Origin: Panacagrimonas sp.
GTDB taxonomy: Bacteria; Pseudomonadota; Gammaproteobacteria; Nevskiales; Nevskiaceae
DNA length: 64,000 bases
Assembly: GCF_020697055.1 (NCBI RefSeq)
Contig: NZ_JAJFBP010000020.1
Span: 1-64,000 of the forward strand
Reading direction: 5' to 3'
The first letter of the stretch is position 1. Each line of letters starts with the position of its first letter. Positions 18,516-62,078 of the stretch are shown piece by piece. The notes beneath the pieces were generated by a model. That model was not told where the DNA came from and made no database searches. It saw only the letters and a program-made list of their open reading frames with translations. The position numbers and the translations under genes are program-made.

Positions 18516-19436
18516 ATGAGCGAGCTCCGTTCCGCGGCCGTGATGTTCGCGGATATCGCTGCCGCCACCGAGCTGCGCAACAGCGTCGGGGATCGGCAGG
18601 CGGACGCCATCCTGGACCCTTTGCTCCAGGCATTGACCGATATCGTCTATCGCAACGGAGGCGAGGTCCTGAAATCGGATGGCGACGACGTGCTCGCGGT
18701 GTTCGATCGTGCCGGGACCTGCGTGGACGATGCCGCCAATGCCGCGATCGAGTGCCAGCTCGCCGCCCGCGGCGCGGGACGCAAGCTGTACGTGGGCGTC
18801 GATGCGGGCGTGGTGGAGTTTCGCGAAGTGCTCGGGCGGCCCGATGTCGCGGGCATGCCGGTGAATCTTGCGGCGCGCCTGCACAAGCTGGTGCCGGACC
18901 TGGCCGGCTACATCTTCCTGGCGATCGACACCGTCCAAGCCCTGCGGCCCGATCTGCGTGACCGCGCTCGGCCCTACGGCGTGCGGCCCATCAAGGGAGT
19001 CGGTGCGGTCGACGTGCACACGCTCGACTGGGACGAAGCGGTCACCATGGTGCCGACGCGCTTCGCGCTGCCGACGACGCAGGCCATTCAGGCGGCGGCG
19101 CTGGCGCTTACGCACGCCGGCCGCGTGATGCGCCTGACGCCGAGCACGCCGGCGCTGATGGTGGGGCGCGACCGCAACAACGAGCTGCGCATCGACGACG
19201 ACGAGCAACGCGTGTCATCGCGCCATCTCAAGGTCCTGTGCCGCAACGGCGCCTGGATCCTGCAGGACACCAGTCGCAACGGGACGTGGGTGCGCTTCAA
19301 CAACAATTCGAACCAGATCGGACTGCTCGGCGACGAGCTCAAGCTCGTGGGGAACGGGCGCATGTGCCTCGGCCGTCCCTTTGCCGACGACGTGCAGGGA
19401 CGATTCACGGTGCACTTCGAACTCGTGAAGAAATGA
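18516..19436 (+). CDS. Class III nucleotide cyclase-FHA fusion protein
   Basis: 306 aa soluble signalling protein. Residues 1-175 form a class III adenylate/guanylate cyclase homology domain with a full set of likely catalytic residues: metal Asp D13 (FADI), K53 and D57 (VLKSDGDDV), D110, and N117/R121 (VNLAARL). Residues about 205-300 form an FHA phosphothreonine-binding domain with GR 217-218, SSRH 234-237 and RNGTW 254-258. cAMP versus cGMP specificity cannot be read. The kinase gene begins 19 bases downstream, so a kinase-reader pair in one operon is likely. A related protein is encoded at 60512-61459. Confidence 0.85.
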   Translation: MSELRSAAVMFADIAAATELRNSVGDRQADAILDPLLQALTDIVYRNGGEVLKSDGDDVLAVFDRAGTCVDDAANAAIECQLAARGAGRKLYVGVDAGVVEFREVLGRPDVAGMPVNLAARLHKLVPDLAGYIFLAIDTVQALRPDLRDRARPYGVRPIKGVGAVDVHTLDWDEAVTMVPTRFALPTTQAIQAAALALTHAGRVMRLTPSTPALMVGRDRNNELRIDDDEQRVSSRHLKVLCRNGAWILQDTSRNGTWVRFNNNSNQIGLLGDELKLVGNGRMCLGRPFADDVQGRFTVHFELVKK

Positions 19437-19455
19437 TCACGGGGCACTTCCTGGG

Positions 19456-22047
19456 ATGAGCGCGCCCAGCGTCCTTGCCGACGGCACCTGGATCGACAAC
19501 TTCCGTGTCGTGCGACGGCTCGGACGCGGCGGGTTCGGCGTCACGTATCTCGCCGAGGAGTTCCGCGAGTGGGAGGCGGGCAGCGGGACCGGCTCGCCGT
19601 TGCGACTGGTCGCGATCAAGGAGTACTTCCCGCGCGGCCTGGCGACGCGTCCGGACGGGCACACGGTCATGCTCTCGCCCGATGTCGAGGGCGGGGAGCA
19701 AGCCTTCCAGATGGCGCTGAAGGGCTTCTTCCAGGAAGCCGAATCGTTGATGCGGTTCGATCATCCGAACGTCATCAAGATCCACCGCGTGTTCCAGCGC
19801 AACGGGACCGCGTACTACATCATGCCCTTCCTCAAGGGCGAGACGCTCAAGGCCATCCTCAAGCGCGACGGCGCGATGGGCGAGGAACGCGCGCGGCGGC
19901 TGATGCTGCCCATCCTCGACGGCCTGATCCACGCGCACGCCAAAGGCATCCTCCATCGCGACCTGAAGCCGGACAACGTGATGGTGCCGGACGAGGGCGG
20001 GCCGGTGTTGATCGATTTCGGCGCGGCGCGCGCGCAGGCGGTCGACGACGTCCAGGAATACACGCGCCACAGCGAGCTGGTCGCGTACACCCCGGGGTAT
20101 GCGGCGCTGGAGCAGTACGGACGCGCCACGCGCGACAATCTTCACGGTGCGCACACCGACGTCTACGGCCTGGCGGCGGTGCTCTACCACTGCGTGACGG
20201 GTGAGGCGCCGATCGAGGCGTCGCTGCGTTCGATGCAGCTCTCCAACGGCGCGGTCGATCCGCTGTCGCCCGCGTCGTCGCGGCTGATGGATACGCCGGG
20301 CTACGGCCGGGCGTTCCTGTCGGCGATCGATTGGGGACTCGAGCTCGCCGGCCGCAGCCGACCGCAGACCGTGGCCGAGTTCCGGCGTGCGCTCGACGGC
20401 AAGCTGACGCTGCCCGAGCACACGCTCGCGCGCCTCGAACAGCACGGCGTATCGACCGAGCCGTTCACGCGCCCCGGGCCGACGACGCGCACGATCTCGC
20501 CCACGGTCCCTGTGCGCGATACACAGCAGCTGGCGACGCGCCTGCTCTCGGAGCCGACCGACACGGTGGTCGGCCATCCCGCGACGCGTCCGTCGATCCA
20601 GACCGGACCGCTGACCGACCCGCTCACCGGACCCACCACGGGCCCGATCACCGGTCGACACACGACGACGCCGACGATGCCGGTGCCGGTGCAGGACGCA
20701 ACCGTGATGTTCCCGCCGCAGCCCGCCGCCGCGGCGCCGGCGCCGAAGAGCGGGAGCGGGAGCGGCAAGCTGCTGCCGATCCTGGGGCTGCTCGTATCCG
20801 TGATCGCCGTGGCCTATGTGGCGCGCGACCAGGTGCCCGAAGGCGTTCGCGCGGCGCTTCCCGAAGGCCTGCGCGCCCAGTTGTGGCCGGCCCCGCCGGC
20901 CGAATCGACGGTGGCGACGCCGGTGACGCCGCCCGCATCGATCGAGCCGGCGCCCGTACCCGTGCCGGTGCCCGAGCCGCCGCGTGAAGATCCCAAGGCC
21001 GTAGCGGAGCGCGAAGCCTTCGAAGCGGCGAAGTCCAGCGATTCGCTGGAAGGCTGGAAGGCGTTCAAGAAAGCCTTTCCGGATAGCGCGCTCGCGGCGA
21101 CCGCGGACATCCGCATCGCGGCCTTGCAGCCCAAGCCCACGCCCAAGCCGGTGCCCACGCCGCCGCCGGTCCCCGAACGCGCCGCACCCGTTCCGGTCCC
21201 CGTGCCGTCGCCTCCGGTCGCCGAAGCGCCGCCGCAGCCGAAGCCTGAAACCGCTCCGGTTCCCCGACCGGCGCCGCAACCCAAGACGCTGTCGGGCGGT
21301 TTTCGTGATTGCCCGGCCTGCCCGGAGATGGTCAAGGTCCCTGGCGGTTCGCTCGAGATGGGTGACGTCGCAGGGACCGGCGAGGCCGACGAAAAGCCCC
21401 TTCGCCAGATCGGCATCGGTGCGTTCTATGCCGGACGCTACGAAGTCACGTTCGACGACTGGGCCGGGTGCGTGAGCGGCGGCGGCTGCAACGGCACGCC
21501 GCGCGACGCCGGTTGGGGTCGCGGTCGTCGACCGGTGATCAACGTCAGCTGGAACGACGCGCAGCGTTACGCGAGCTGGCTTTCGCGCGAGTCCGGCAAG
21601 CGCTATCGCCTGCCGAGCGAGGCCGAGTTCGAATACATGATGCGGGCGGGGTCGCGCAGCACCTATCCCTGGGGCGAGGACGGCTCGCAGGCCTGCCTGT
21701 TCGCCAACGTGGCGGATCGCCAGGCCAAGAAGCAGAACCCCGACTGGAACACGTTCCCCTGCGACGACGGCAATCCGCTGACCGCACCGGTGGGCAGCTA
21801 CCGCGCCAACCCGTTCGGTCTGTTCGACGTCGCCGGCAACGTCTGGGAGTGGACGCTGGACTGCTACCAGAGCTATCGGCAGGCCGCGTCTGACGGCTCG
21901 CCGTCGAACCCGGCCAATTGCGCGCGCCGGGTCATCCGCGGCGGCTCATGGAGCGATGCGACGCGCAATCTGCGTTCGGCCGACCGCACCGCCAGTTCGC
22001 CCAATGCGACGCTGAAGATCGTCGGATTCCGCGTGGTGCGCGACTGA
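19456..22047 (+). CDS. Membrane Ser/Thr protein kinase with C-terminal FGE-like domain
   Basis: 863 aa. N-terminal Hanks-type kinase: Gly loop GRGGFG (23-28), Lys in VAIKEYF (K55), HRDLKPDN (167-174), DFG (187-189) and PGYAALEQY as APE variant. A Pro/Thr-rich linker follows, with one transmembrane helix at about 438-456 and a Pro-rich stalk. From about 618 on there is a formylglycine-generating-enzyme/SUMF1-type domain (PGGSLEMGD, LPSEAEFEYMMRAGS, GNVWEWT, GFRVVRD). The two Cys used by true FGE after RGGS are missing (RGGSWSDATRN), so this domain is probably a ligand or structural module. Predicted topology: kinase inside, FGE-like domain in the periplasm. Confidence 0.9.
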   Translation: MSAPSVLADGTWIDNFRVVRRLGRGGFGVTYLAEEFREWEAGSGTGSPLRLVAIKEYFPRGLATRPDGHTVMLSPDVEGGEQAFQMALKGFFQEAESLMRFDHPNVIKIHRVFQRNGTAYYIMPFLKGETLKAILKRDGAMGEERARRLMLPILDGLIHAHAKGILHRDLKPDNVMVPDEGGPVLIDFGAARAQAVDDVQEYTRHSELVAYTPGYAALEQYGRATRDNLHGAHTDVYGLAAVLYHCVTGEAPIEASLRSMQLSNGAVDPLSPASSRLMDTPGYGRAFLSAIDWGLELAGRSRPQTVAEFRRALDGKLTLPEHTLARLEQHGVSTEPFTRPGPTTRTISPTVPVRDTQQLATRLLSEPTDTVVGHPATRPSIQTGPLTDPLTGPTTGPITGRHTTTPTMPVPVQDATVMFPPQPAAAAPAPKSGSGSGKLLPILGLLVSVIAVAYVARDQVPEGVRAALPEGLRAQLWPAPPAESTVATPVTPPASIEPAPVPVPVPEPPREDPKAVAEREAFEAAKSSDSLEGWKAFKKAFPDSALAATADIRIAALQPKPTPKPVPTPPPVPERAAPVPVPVPSPPVAEAPPQPKPETAPVPRPAPQPKTLSGGFRDCPACPEMVKVPGGSLEMGDVAGTGEADEKPLRQIGIGAFYAGRYEVTFDDWAGCVSGGGCNGTPRDAGWGRGRRPVINVSWNDAQRYASWLSRESGKRYRLPSEAEFEYMMRAGSRSTYPWGEDGSQACLFANVADRQAKKQNPDWNTFPCDDGNPLTAPVGSYRANPFGLFDVAGNVWEWTLDCYQSYRQAASDGSPSNPANCARRVIRGGSWSDATRNLRSADRTASSPNATLKIVGFRVVRD

Positions 22048-60511: not shown

Positions 60512-61459
60512 ATGACGCCGAGCGTCCGCCATTGCACCGTCCTGATCGTCGACATCGCCGGCTCGGTGGCGTTGCGCGCGGAGGTGGGCGAGGCCGAGGC
60601 CAGCCGGCGCATCCGGGAACTGCTGCAGGATCTGGCGGCGATCGCACGCGCCAACGGCTGCACGTTCCTGAAATCCTACGGCGACGACCTGATCGCCACG
60701 TTCGAAGGCACCGATCACGGCGCGGCGCTGGCCGCCGAATCCGCGGTCGCGATGCAGCGGCGCGCCGACGCGCTCGGCTTGCAGCTCTACTCGGGGCTGT
60801 GCGAAGGGCCGGTGGAGTTCGTCGAGAGCATGGGTCATCCCGATGCCTACGGGCAGGCGATGAATCTCGCCGCGCGACTGCACAAGCTCACCGAGGACGC
60901 GCCCGGCCGGATCTTCCTGCCGGTCGAGCTCGTGCAGATGCTGCCGGCCGACCTGCGCAAGGAGGCCTCGCTGTTTTCGTCGCGCCACATCAAGGGCTAC
61001 GGTCCGATGGAGGTGTGGACGCTGTCGTGGCGCGACCACTCGGCCACCGTCACCTACGTGCCGCCCAAGACCACCGGGACCGACGCCTTGCCGCTGCGCG
61101 CCGGGCCGCTCGCGCTGTGGCATCGCGGCAAGCGCATGGACGTCGCACCCGGCGGTGACGTGTTCGTGATCGGACGCTCGGCCAGTTGTTCGCTGCAGGT
61201 TCCGGATCCCGAGCCGCGCATCTCCACCAAGCACCTGACGATCGCGATCGAAAGCGGACTGTGGATGGCACACGACGTCAGCCGCAACGGCTGCTGGGTG
61301 CGCGACGAGCGAACCGGCGAGGAATTTCCGCTGATGCCCGGCGCCAAGGCACGCCTGCCGGGACGCGGCGCGATCTGCCTGGGCCGCTCGTTCGTCGAGG
61401 ATCCGGGCAATGCGTACGTCGTGTATTTCGAAGCGGCGCTGCGGGCGTTGAAGACGTGA
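60512..61459 (+). CDS. Class III nucleotide cyclase-FHA fusion protein, paralogue
   Basis: 315 aa with the same layout as the protein at 18516-19436. Cyclase residues: D14 (IVDIAGS), K54/D58 (FLKSYGDDL), D111, N118/R122 (AMNLAARL). FHA: GR 221-222, STKH 238-241, SRNGCW with Cys in place of the usual Thr after NG. Both therefore appear catalytically complete. No kinase is adjacent here; instead a dual-specificity phosphatase converges on it, separated by a palindromic repeat. Confidence 0.85.
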   Translation: MTPSVRHCTVLIVDIAGSVALRAEVGEAEASRRIRELLQDLAAIARANGCTFLKSYGDDLIATFEGTDHGAALAAESAVAMQRRADALGLQLYSGLCEGPVEFVESMGHPDAYGQAMNLAARLHKLTEDAPGRIFLPVELVQMLPADLRKEASLFSSRHIKGYGPMEVWTLSWRDHSATVTYVPPKTTGTDALPLRAGPLALWHRGKRMDVAPGGDVFVIGRSASCSLQVPDPEPRISTKHLTIAIESGLWMAHDVSRNGCWVRDERTGEEFPLMPGAKARLPGRGAICLGRSFVEDPGNAYVVYFEAALRALKT

Positions 61460-61498: not shown

Positions 61499-61593
61499 CC
61501 GGTAGGGCAGGAAAGCGGCCGGCTTTTTCGGCCTCGCATCCCGCCGTGGTACTTCATCGCGACGGGATGCGCTTCGCTTTCCCGCCCTACCGG
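61499..61593. repeat. Palindromic repeat, family GGTAGGGCGGGAAAGCG, copy B
   Basis: Arms 61499-61517 and 61575-61593 (19 bp, one mismatch); inner segments match copy A (GCATCCCG, AAGCG). The right arm contains the stop codon and last codon of the phosphatase gene, so the repeat has invaded or supplied its 3' end. Confidence 0.88.
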
Positions 61594-62078
61594 ATTTCCA
61601 AATACTGCAAGACCCAGCGCACCTGTTCCGGCGTATCGGGAACGTCGAGTCGCCGCGCCTTGCTGAGCATCGGAAACAGCTGATCGCGCGGCACACCGAG
61701 CCGGGCCATCACGCACGCGGCGACCAGGCCCGAGCGGCCGATGCCCATGCGGCAGTGGATGCCGACCTTTCGACCCGACGCGATCTCGTCCGTTAGTTCA
61801 CCGACCAGCATCCGCAGCAAGGTCGCGGACGTCGGCACGCTGCGATCGACGATCGGAAACGATCGAAAGCGCAGACCTGCGCGCTCGCACTGCGCCGCCT
61901 CGTCCTGCAGGCCCAGGTCGCGCACTTCGTCCGAGGTCAGCAGCGACACGAGCGTGTCGATCCCCGCGGCGGCCAGGCCACGCATCTCCGAGGCGAGCCA
62001 TTCACCCGCGCGCGGCCGCGGCAGGATGGCCAGGCCGGCCGGCTCGATGCCGCGGATCCAGAAGAGGTCGGGAATCAC
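61587..62078 (-). CDS. Dual-specificity/tyrosine phosphatase-like protein
   Basis: 163 aa cytoplasmic phosphatase. P-loop HCRMGIGRSG with C109 and R115 (CX5R), general acid likely D78 in PIVDRSVP. Related to bacterial DSPs that act on phosphoproteins or small phosphates. Its last codons are within the palindromic repeat. A natural counterpart of the kinase at 19456-22047, but a functional link is unproven. Confidence 0.85.
   Translation of the reverse strand: MIPDLFWIRGIEPAGLAILPRPRAGEWLASEMRGLAAAGIDTLVSLLTSDEVRDLGLQDEAAQCERAGLRFRSFPIVDRSVPTSATLLRMLVGELTDEIASGRKVGIHCRMGIGRSGLVAACVMARLGVPRDQLFPMLSKARRLDVPDTPEQVRWVLQYLEIR

Follow-up and report, generated by a model that had tools for sequence, protein, structure and literature searches.

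Several described systems share parts with the locus reported here. In the Bdellovibrio diguanylate cyclase DgcB, residue T14 of the tail binds the FHA domain of the same protein, and a disulfide-stapled mimic activates the enzyme, whose kinase is unknown (PMC6733907). In OdhI and GarA, which are associated with the kinases PknG and PknB, the FHA domain binds a phosphorylated Thr in the N-terminal part of the same protein (PMC2784874). In the type VI secretion system (T6SS), Thr362 of Fha1 is phosphorylated by PpkA, and PppA exerts negative control (PMC5995506). The stretch analyzed here, 64,000 nucleotides of Panacagrimonas sp. contig NZ_JAJFBP010000020.1 (hereafter the window), carries a gene whose product joins a class III nucleotidyl cyclase to an FHA domain (cyclase-FHA), followed by a gene for a membrane Ser/Thr kinase that ends in an FGE-like module (kinase-FGE). 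We consider it moderately probable that the two form a signaling module in which the kinase controls the synthesis of cyclic AMP (cAMP) by way of a phosphothreonine switch that is part of the cyclase protein.

As with DgcB, the cyclase-FHA protein would be a second-messenger enzyme gated by its own conserved Thr, which lies in a flexible segment and binds the FHA domain. However, DgcB makes c-di-GMP and has the order tail-FHA-GGDEF, with the Thr in an N-terminal tail and the FHA domain ahead of the enzyme, whereas the window protein is a class III cyclase with cAMP as its predicted product, its Thr lies between enzyme and FHA domain, and a kinase and a phosphatase are genetically linked to the family. 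OdhI and GarA also have a flexible segment on the N-terminal side of the FHA domain, and a Thr in it is phosphorylated by a Ser/Thr protein kinase and bound by the same protein's FHA domain, but these proteins are actinobacterial, have no enzymatic domain and inhibit metabolic enzymes. The PpkA-Fha1-PppA system likewise combines a PpkA-like kinase domain, an FHA reader and a PP2C eraser. Its reader is a T6SS component and its genes serve T6SS, whereas the reader in the window is a cyclase with neighbors unrelated to T6SS.

With respect to the kinase, Pseudomonas aeruginosa PpkA carries a vWA domain rather than FGE (PMC1262709). A chlamydial Ser/Thr kinase is fused to an FGE-like (NirV/DUF323) domain, as in the window, but no cyclase-FHA partner is described for it in the same paper (PMC1262709). 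Myxococcus Pkn2 (PMC1262709) and the TOMM kinase/cyclase fusion family (TIGR03903) combine a Hanks kinase with a class III cyclase. However, these are single fused polypeptides rather than two genes plus an FHA reader, and PMC1262709 lists no FHA domain for Pkn2. Among open-licence papers, we found nothing matching a cyclase-FHA/kinase/PP2C operon, which agrees with the original prediction that no described pathway has exactly this pairing, even though DgcB, OdhI/GarA and Fha1-PpkA are close mechanistic relatives. The proposed system is best viewed as a variant of known FHA phospho-switches, in which the new elements are the class III cyclase output and the genetically linked kinase and phosphatase.

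The two window genes are read in the same direction with a gap of 19 nucleotides. The open reading frames (ORFs), coordinates and domains predicted originally from the DNA were all confirmed, and the features are as follows.

18516-19436, + strand: cyclase-FHA gene, soluble product of 306 amino acids (ORF; conserved family; no predicted transmembrane segment; AlphaFold2 (AF2) model with pLDDT 92)
18516-19031, + strand: class III nucleotidyl cyclase domain, residues 1-172 (active-site set D13, K53, D57, D110, N117, R121)
19032-19100, + strand: linker, residues 173-195 (AF2 model)
19056-19058, + strand: codon for T181, the near-invariant linker Thr and proposed phosphosite (alignment conservation)
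19101-19427, + strand: FHA domain with R218, S234, H237 and N255 (PF00498, 8e-9)
19456-22047, + strand: gene for a membrane Ser/Thr kinase with an FGE-like C-terminus, 863 amino acids (ORF; domain matches)
19498-20397, + strand: PpkA-like protein kinase domain, residues 15-314 (PF00069, 6e-31; PpkA, 4e-41)
20767-20823, + strand: single predicted transmembrane segment, residues 438-456 (hydropathy; similar place in the relatives examined)
21319-22041, + strand: FGE/PvdO-like module, residues 622-862, predicted to be periplasmic (PF03781, 5e-54)

The candidate phosphosite is T181. Its alignment column holds Thr in 88 of 90 aligned family members, in the context acidic-acidic-V/A-T-R-M/I/F-A, and is about as strongly conserved as the phosphate-binding residues of the FHA domain. 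When each linker was shuffled and realigned (25 times), Thr occupied any linker column in at most 19 of the 90 sequences. The position is also Thr in at least 90% of alignment A3, and a linker Thr was found again, as E-L-T-V/I-M, in nearly all loci of a phylum-wide survey. In the AF2 model of the cyclase-FHA protein, residues 177-186, which include T181, are the sole segment with pLDDT below 50. The FHA domain carries its GR, SxxH and NG motifs (R218, S234, H237 and N255-G256), and these four phospho-binding residues are among the invariant columns in 16 relatives, together with D13, K53, D57, D110, N117 and R121 of the cyclase. A small control revealed no invariant Thr at the same place in cyclases that lack FHA domains. 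The one clear exception among the cyclase-FHA proteins, L135, has neither the linker Thr nor the FHA Asn, the latter being replaced by Tyr. This double change hints at coupling between the Thr and the FHA domain, but as a single case it is suggestive only.

The cyclase appears to be catalytically intact. Although the domain scores under the report limit for Pfam Guanylate_cyc, it matches LipJ/Rv1900c (6e-9) and Ma1120 (1.4e-7) in sequence, and Foldseek confirmed a class III cyclase fold (8e-13) with matches to Rv1900c, CyaB and CyaC. The class III residues are complete, comprising the metal-binding Asp residues D13 and D57, the ATP-type pair K53 and D110, and N117 and R121. D110 lies seven residues ahead of N117, which we take to be the position of the purine-specifying Asp in class III cyclases, and both K53 and D110 align with the corresponding positions of Ma1120. 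A Lys/Asp pair of this kind specifies ATP, and thus the adenylyl type, according to the rule derived from Ma1120 (PMC4215837). Because K53 and D110 form such a pair, the product is predicted from the sequence to be cAMP. These purine-specifying residues are altered in some family members (L115:5995-6885, L119:6004-6876, L175 and L176; K to E, N or Y and D to R, N or A), whose substrate specificity may perhaps differ. A search of plasmid proteins recovered distant cyclases only. The similarity to Pycsar PycC covers only residues 7-84 and is of a generic cyclase kind (2.7e-11), and the neighboring gene products that were examined include no typical Pycsar effector.

The partner protein consists of a PpkA-like Ser/Thr kinase domain, a Thr/Pro-rich tail, one transmembrane segment, a helical stretch and the C-terminal FGE/PvdO-like module. 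The closest solved structure to its kinase domain is PpkA, and the catalytic motifs GxGGFG, VAIK, HRDLKPDN and DFG are intact, so the expectation that both enzymes have complete catalytic residues held. The FGE-like module is closest to PvdO among solved structures (3e-37). Its alignment shows GGSWSDATRNLRSADR where true FGE has two Cys, and because these copper-binding residues are absent, formylglycine formation is unlikely on sequence grounds and was dropped as a reading. A ligand-binding or sensor role would be a guess. All but one of the cysteines of the protein lie in its C-terminal part, which fits a periplasmic location for that part. The AF2 model of this protein is poor (pLDDT 58, from 9 sequences).

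Class III cyclases act as dimers. We infer that a cue probably reaches the FGE-like domain, predicted to lie outside the inner membrane, and thereby alters the activity of the cytosolic kinase. The kinase would then phosphorylate T181, as its conservation suggests, in the flexible linker. Phosphorylated T181 would be bound by an FHA domain, either within its own chain or, as the dimeric state of class III cyclases perhaps makes more likely, on the partner chain. Such binding might clamp or rearrange the cyclase dimer and change cAMP output, with activation seeming about twice as probable as its opposite by analogy with DgcB. In many lineages, the operon also encodes a PP2C phosphatase, which would return the switch to its initial state. 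The original prediction had proposed that a periplasmic cue acts through the FGE-like domain on a kinase that phosphorylates itself or the cyclase, and that FHA binding of the phosphosite alters output. T181 makes this proposal concrete by supplying a specific candidate site beside the FHA domain. The assumed sensor fares less well, as other lineages carry different domains in place of the FGE-like module.

The FHA domain might instead bind a phosphothreonine on the autophosphorylated kinase, in its activation loop or juxtamembrane tail, and so bring the cyclase to the membrane, with T181 as a secondary or docking element. According to a title cited in PMC2784874, FHA docking on a kinase activation loop is known for GarA and PknB. 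Moreover, the Thr-rich tail of the window kinase holds DATVM, and that of Panacagrimonas perspica EATQF, both of which resemble the T181 context. However, such stretches occur in these two Panacagrimonas kinases and are not kept across other partner kinases, and the kinase tail was therefore dropped as a conserved docking site. The linker Thr, in contrast, is near-invariant even at loci that have no adjacent kinase. We judge recruitment by the kinase to be unlikely, and favor a switch that operates through T181.

The link between the two genes extends beyond the window. Relatives of the cyclase-FHA protein were gathered irrespective of their neighbors, from the family and order and then from the class, where 60 gammaproteobacterial loci were taken by score. 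The genes are spread across Gammaproteobacteria and other Pseudomonadota. The window genome is close to Panacagrimonas (Nevskiales), with P. perspica DSM 26377 as its nearest relative bearing a name (82% identity for cyclase-FHA, 76-77% for the kinase). Adjacent pairs occur in this species and in Nevskia MAG_CA22, a metagenome-assembled genome (MAG), with genes that overlap or nearly touch. A Ser/Thr kinase lies within ~6 kb at 26 of the 60 gammaproteobacterial loci, representing 20 families, and a PP2C phosphatase is present at 21; one or both are found at 31 loci from 23 of 39 families. With random placement and a mean of 7.6 kinases per genome, linkage would be expected in 0.8 of 24 genomes, yet it was observed in 13 (P ~2e-14). 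The pairing, which the original prediction had singled out as something to check, therefore survives and exceeds chance. The operon order cyclase-FHA, PP2C, large kinase-FGE recurs in several families, often with overlapping genes (L077, L080, L082, L083, L084, L087 and L097). In the phylum-wide survey, PP2C is directly beside the cyclase-FHA gene at 34 of 40 loci. The extra domains of the partner kinases are FGE, TPR, HEAT, HAMP-sCache or none recognized, which indicates that conservation applies to the kinase/PP2C link with cyclase-FHA, whereas the FGE part can be exchanged.

Other observations weigh against a kinase-controlled cyclase switch. With regard to linkage, neither a kinase nor PP2C lies within the flank at 29 of the 60 gammaproteobacterial loci. 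This would be expected if kinases act at a distance, and a looser link fits equally well. The Panacagrimonas OFTM46 MAG (G002) carries cyclase-FHA but lacks a kinase ortholog, both at the locus and in the rest of the genome, and no decayed kinase was found when that locus was searched for one. One syntenic block dominates the neighbor set of the phylum survey, so the 34 PP2C cases are not independent. The loci without a kinase neighbor, which are the majority of those surveyed, and the OFTM46 MAG would suit two independent signaling genes that lie side by side with no direct functional link. We nonetheless regard such ordinary co-location as very improbable, given the excess of linkage over random placement, its recurrence across families, the PP2C operons and a near-invariant linker Thr that goes together with an intact FHA domain.

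With regard to the cyclase itself, 13 of the 82 active-branch members are missing part of the active-site set, and a Thr also follows the cyclase domain in some FHA-less cyclases of another type (T-R-L, in some members of one large multidomain group). In addition, a pseudocyclase branch (L055, L057, L059, L060, L062 and L063) keeps the linker Thr, the FHA domain and a kinase neighbor despite having lost the cyclase catalytic residues. Several of its genes form tandem arrays, among themselves or together with an active cyclase-FHA gene, and adjoin kinase or kinase-FGE genes, from which they often diverge. The FHA/Thr part may thus also act independently of the cyclase, and the window protein could be mainly an FHA phospho-adaptor whose cAMP output is low or of no consequence, as in the decayed branch, of which the paralogs in L059, L060 and L062 sit beside kinase-FGE genes. 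However, both metal-binding Asp residues are retained in 82 of 93 family members, of which 69 have kept the catalytic set in full. Because most of these proteins are only 25-40% identical to the window protein, this persistence implies that catalysis is under selection. The window genome also has twelve cNMP-binding domain matches, which could serve as readers of cAMP. A role chiefly as an adaptor therefore seems quite unlikely to us, and a cyclase switched through T181 is the preferred explanation.

The immediate neighbors of the pair are uvrD, DUF805, M90 peptidase, CMAS and S9 peptidase genes, which do not fit a T6SS component, and this reading was dropped. The pair is not inside a T6SS cluster, and a weak TssB match lies on another contig. 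Its two PP2C genes both lie elsewhere, with none at the locus. Four class III cyclase genes stand in tandem over ~6 kb of another contig (G000:C15:206319-211895). The window itself includes a second gene of the family:

60512-61459, + strand: paralogous cyclase-FHA gene, 39% identical, with no kinase beside it (active-site residues, FHA residues and linker Thr intact)

A convergent DSP/PTP-like phosphatase gene (61590-62078, - strand) adjoins this paralog, which is kept in P. perspica (L046).

Several further associations were seen at related loci. An HDOD domain seems, by eye and from sequence, to be present in kinases beside cyclase-FHA at L048:9487-11982 and L127:6926-9307. A gene for a PpiC-type peptidyl-prolyl isomerase lies near the cyclase-FHA, PP2C and kinase genes in 9 loci (L080, L081, L082, L084, L087, L091, L095, L117 and L121), and an apparent glutamyl-tRNA synthetase gene also recurs in 9 loci. 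Two cyclase-FHA genes close to those of Nevskiales (L069 and L070) come from a MAG labeled Verrucomicrobia (MOSS_genome_mining.1), for which mis-binning or transfer is possible.

On a broader scale, we tentatively propose, with chances that we place just short of even, that a large family of Pseudomonadota cAMP cyclases is switched directly by dedicated Ser/Thr kinase and PP2C pairs through a single conserved phosphothreonine that the FHA domain of the cyclase itself recognizes, with interchangeable sensors on the kinases, a system that has so far gone undescribed. If true, this would be a genetically complete set of writer, eraser, reader and output through which Ser/Thr phosphorylation sets bacterial cAMP levels. 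DgcB provided a self-binding FHA switch without its kinase, whereas here the cyclase gene has the kinase gene and, in many lineages, a phosphatase gene as neighbors, so that the whole circuit could be rebuilt with purified proteins. T181 and R218 are the two residues that make the model directly testable by mutation, and the swapped accessory domains of the kinases would represent a natural set of inputs.

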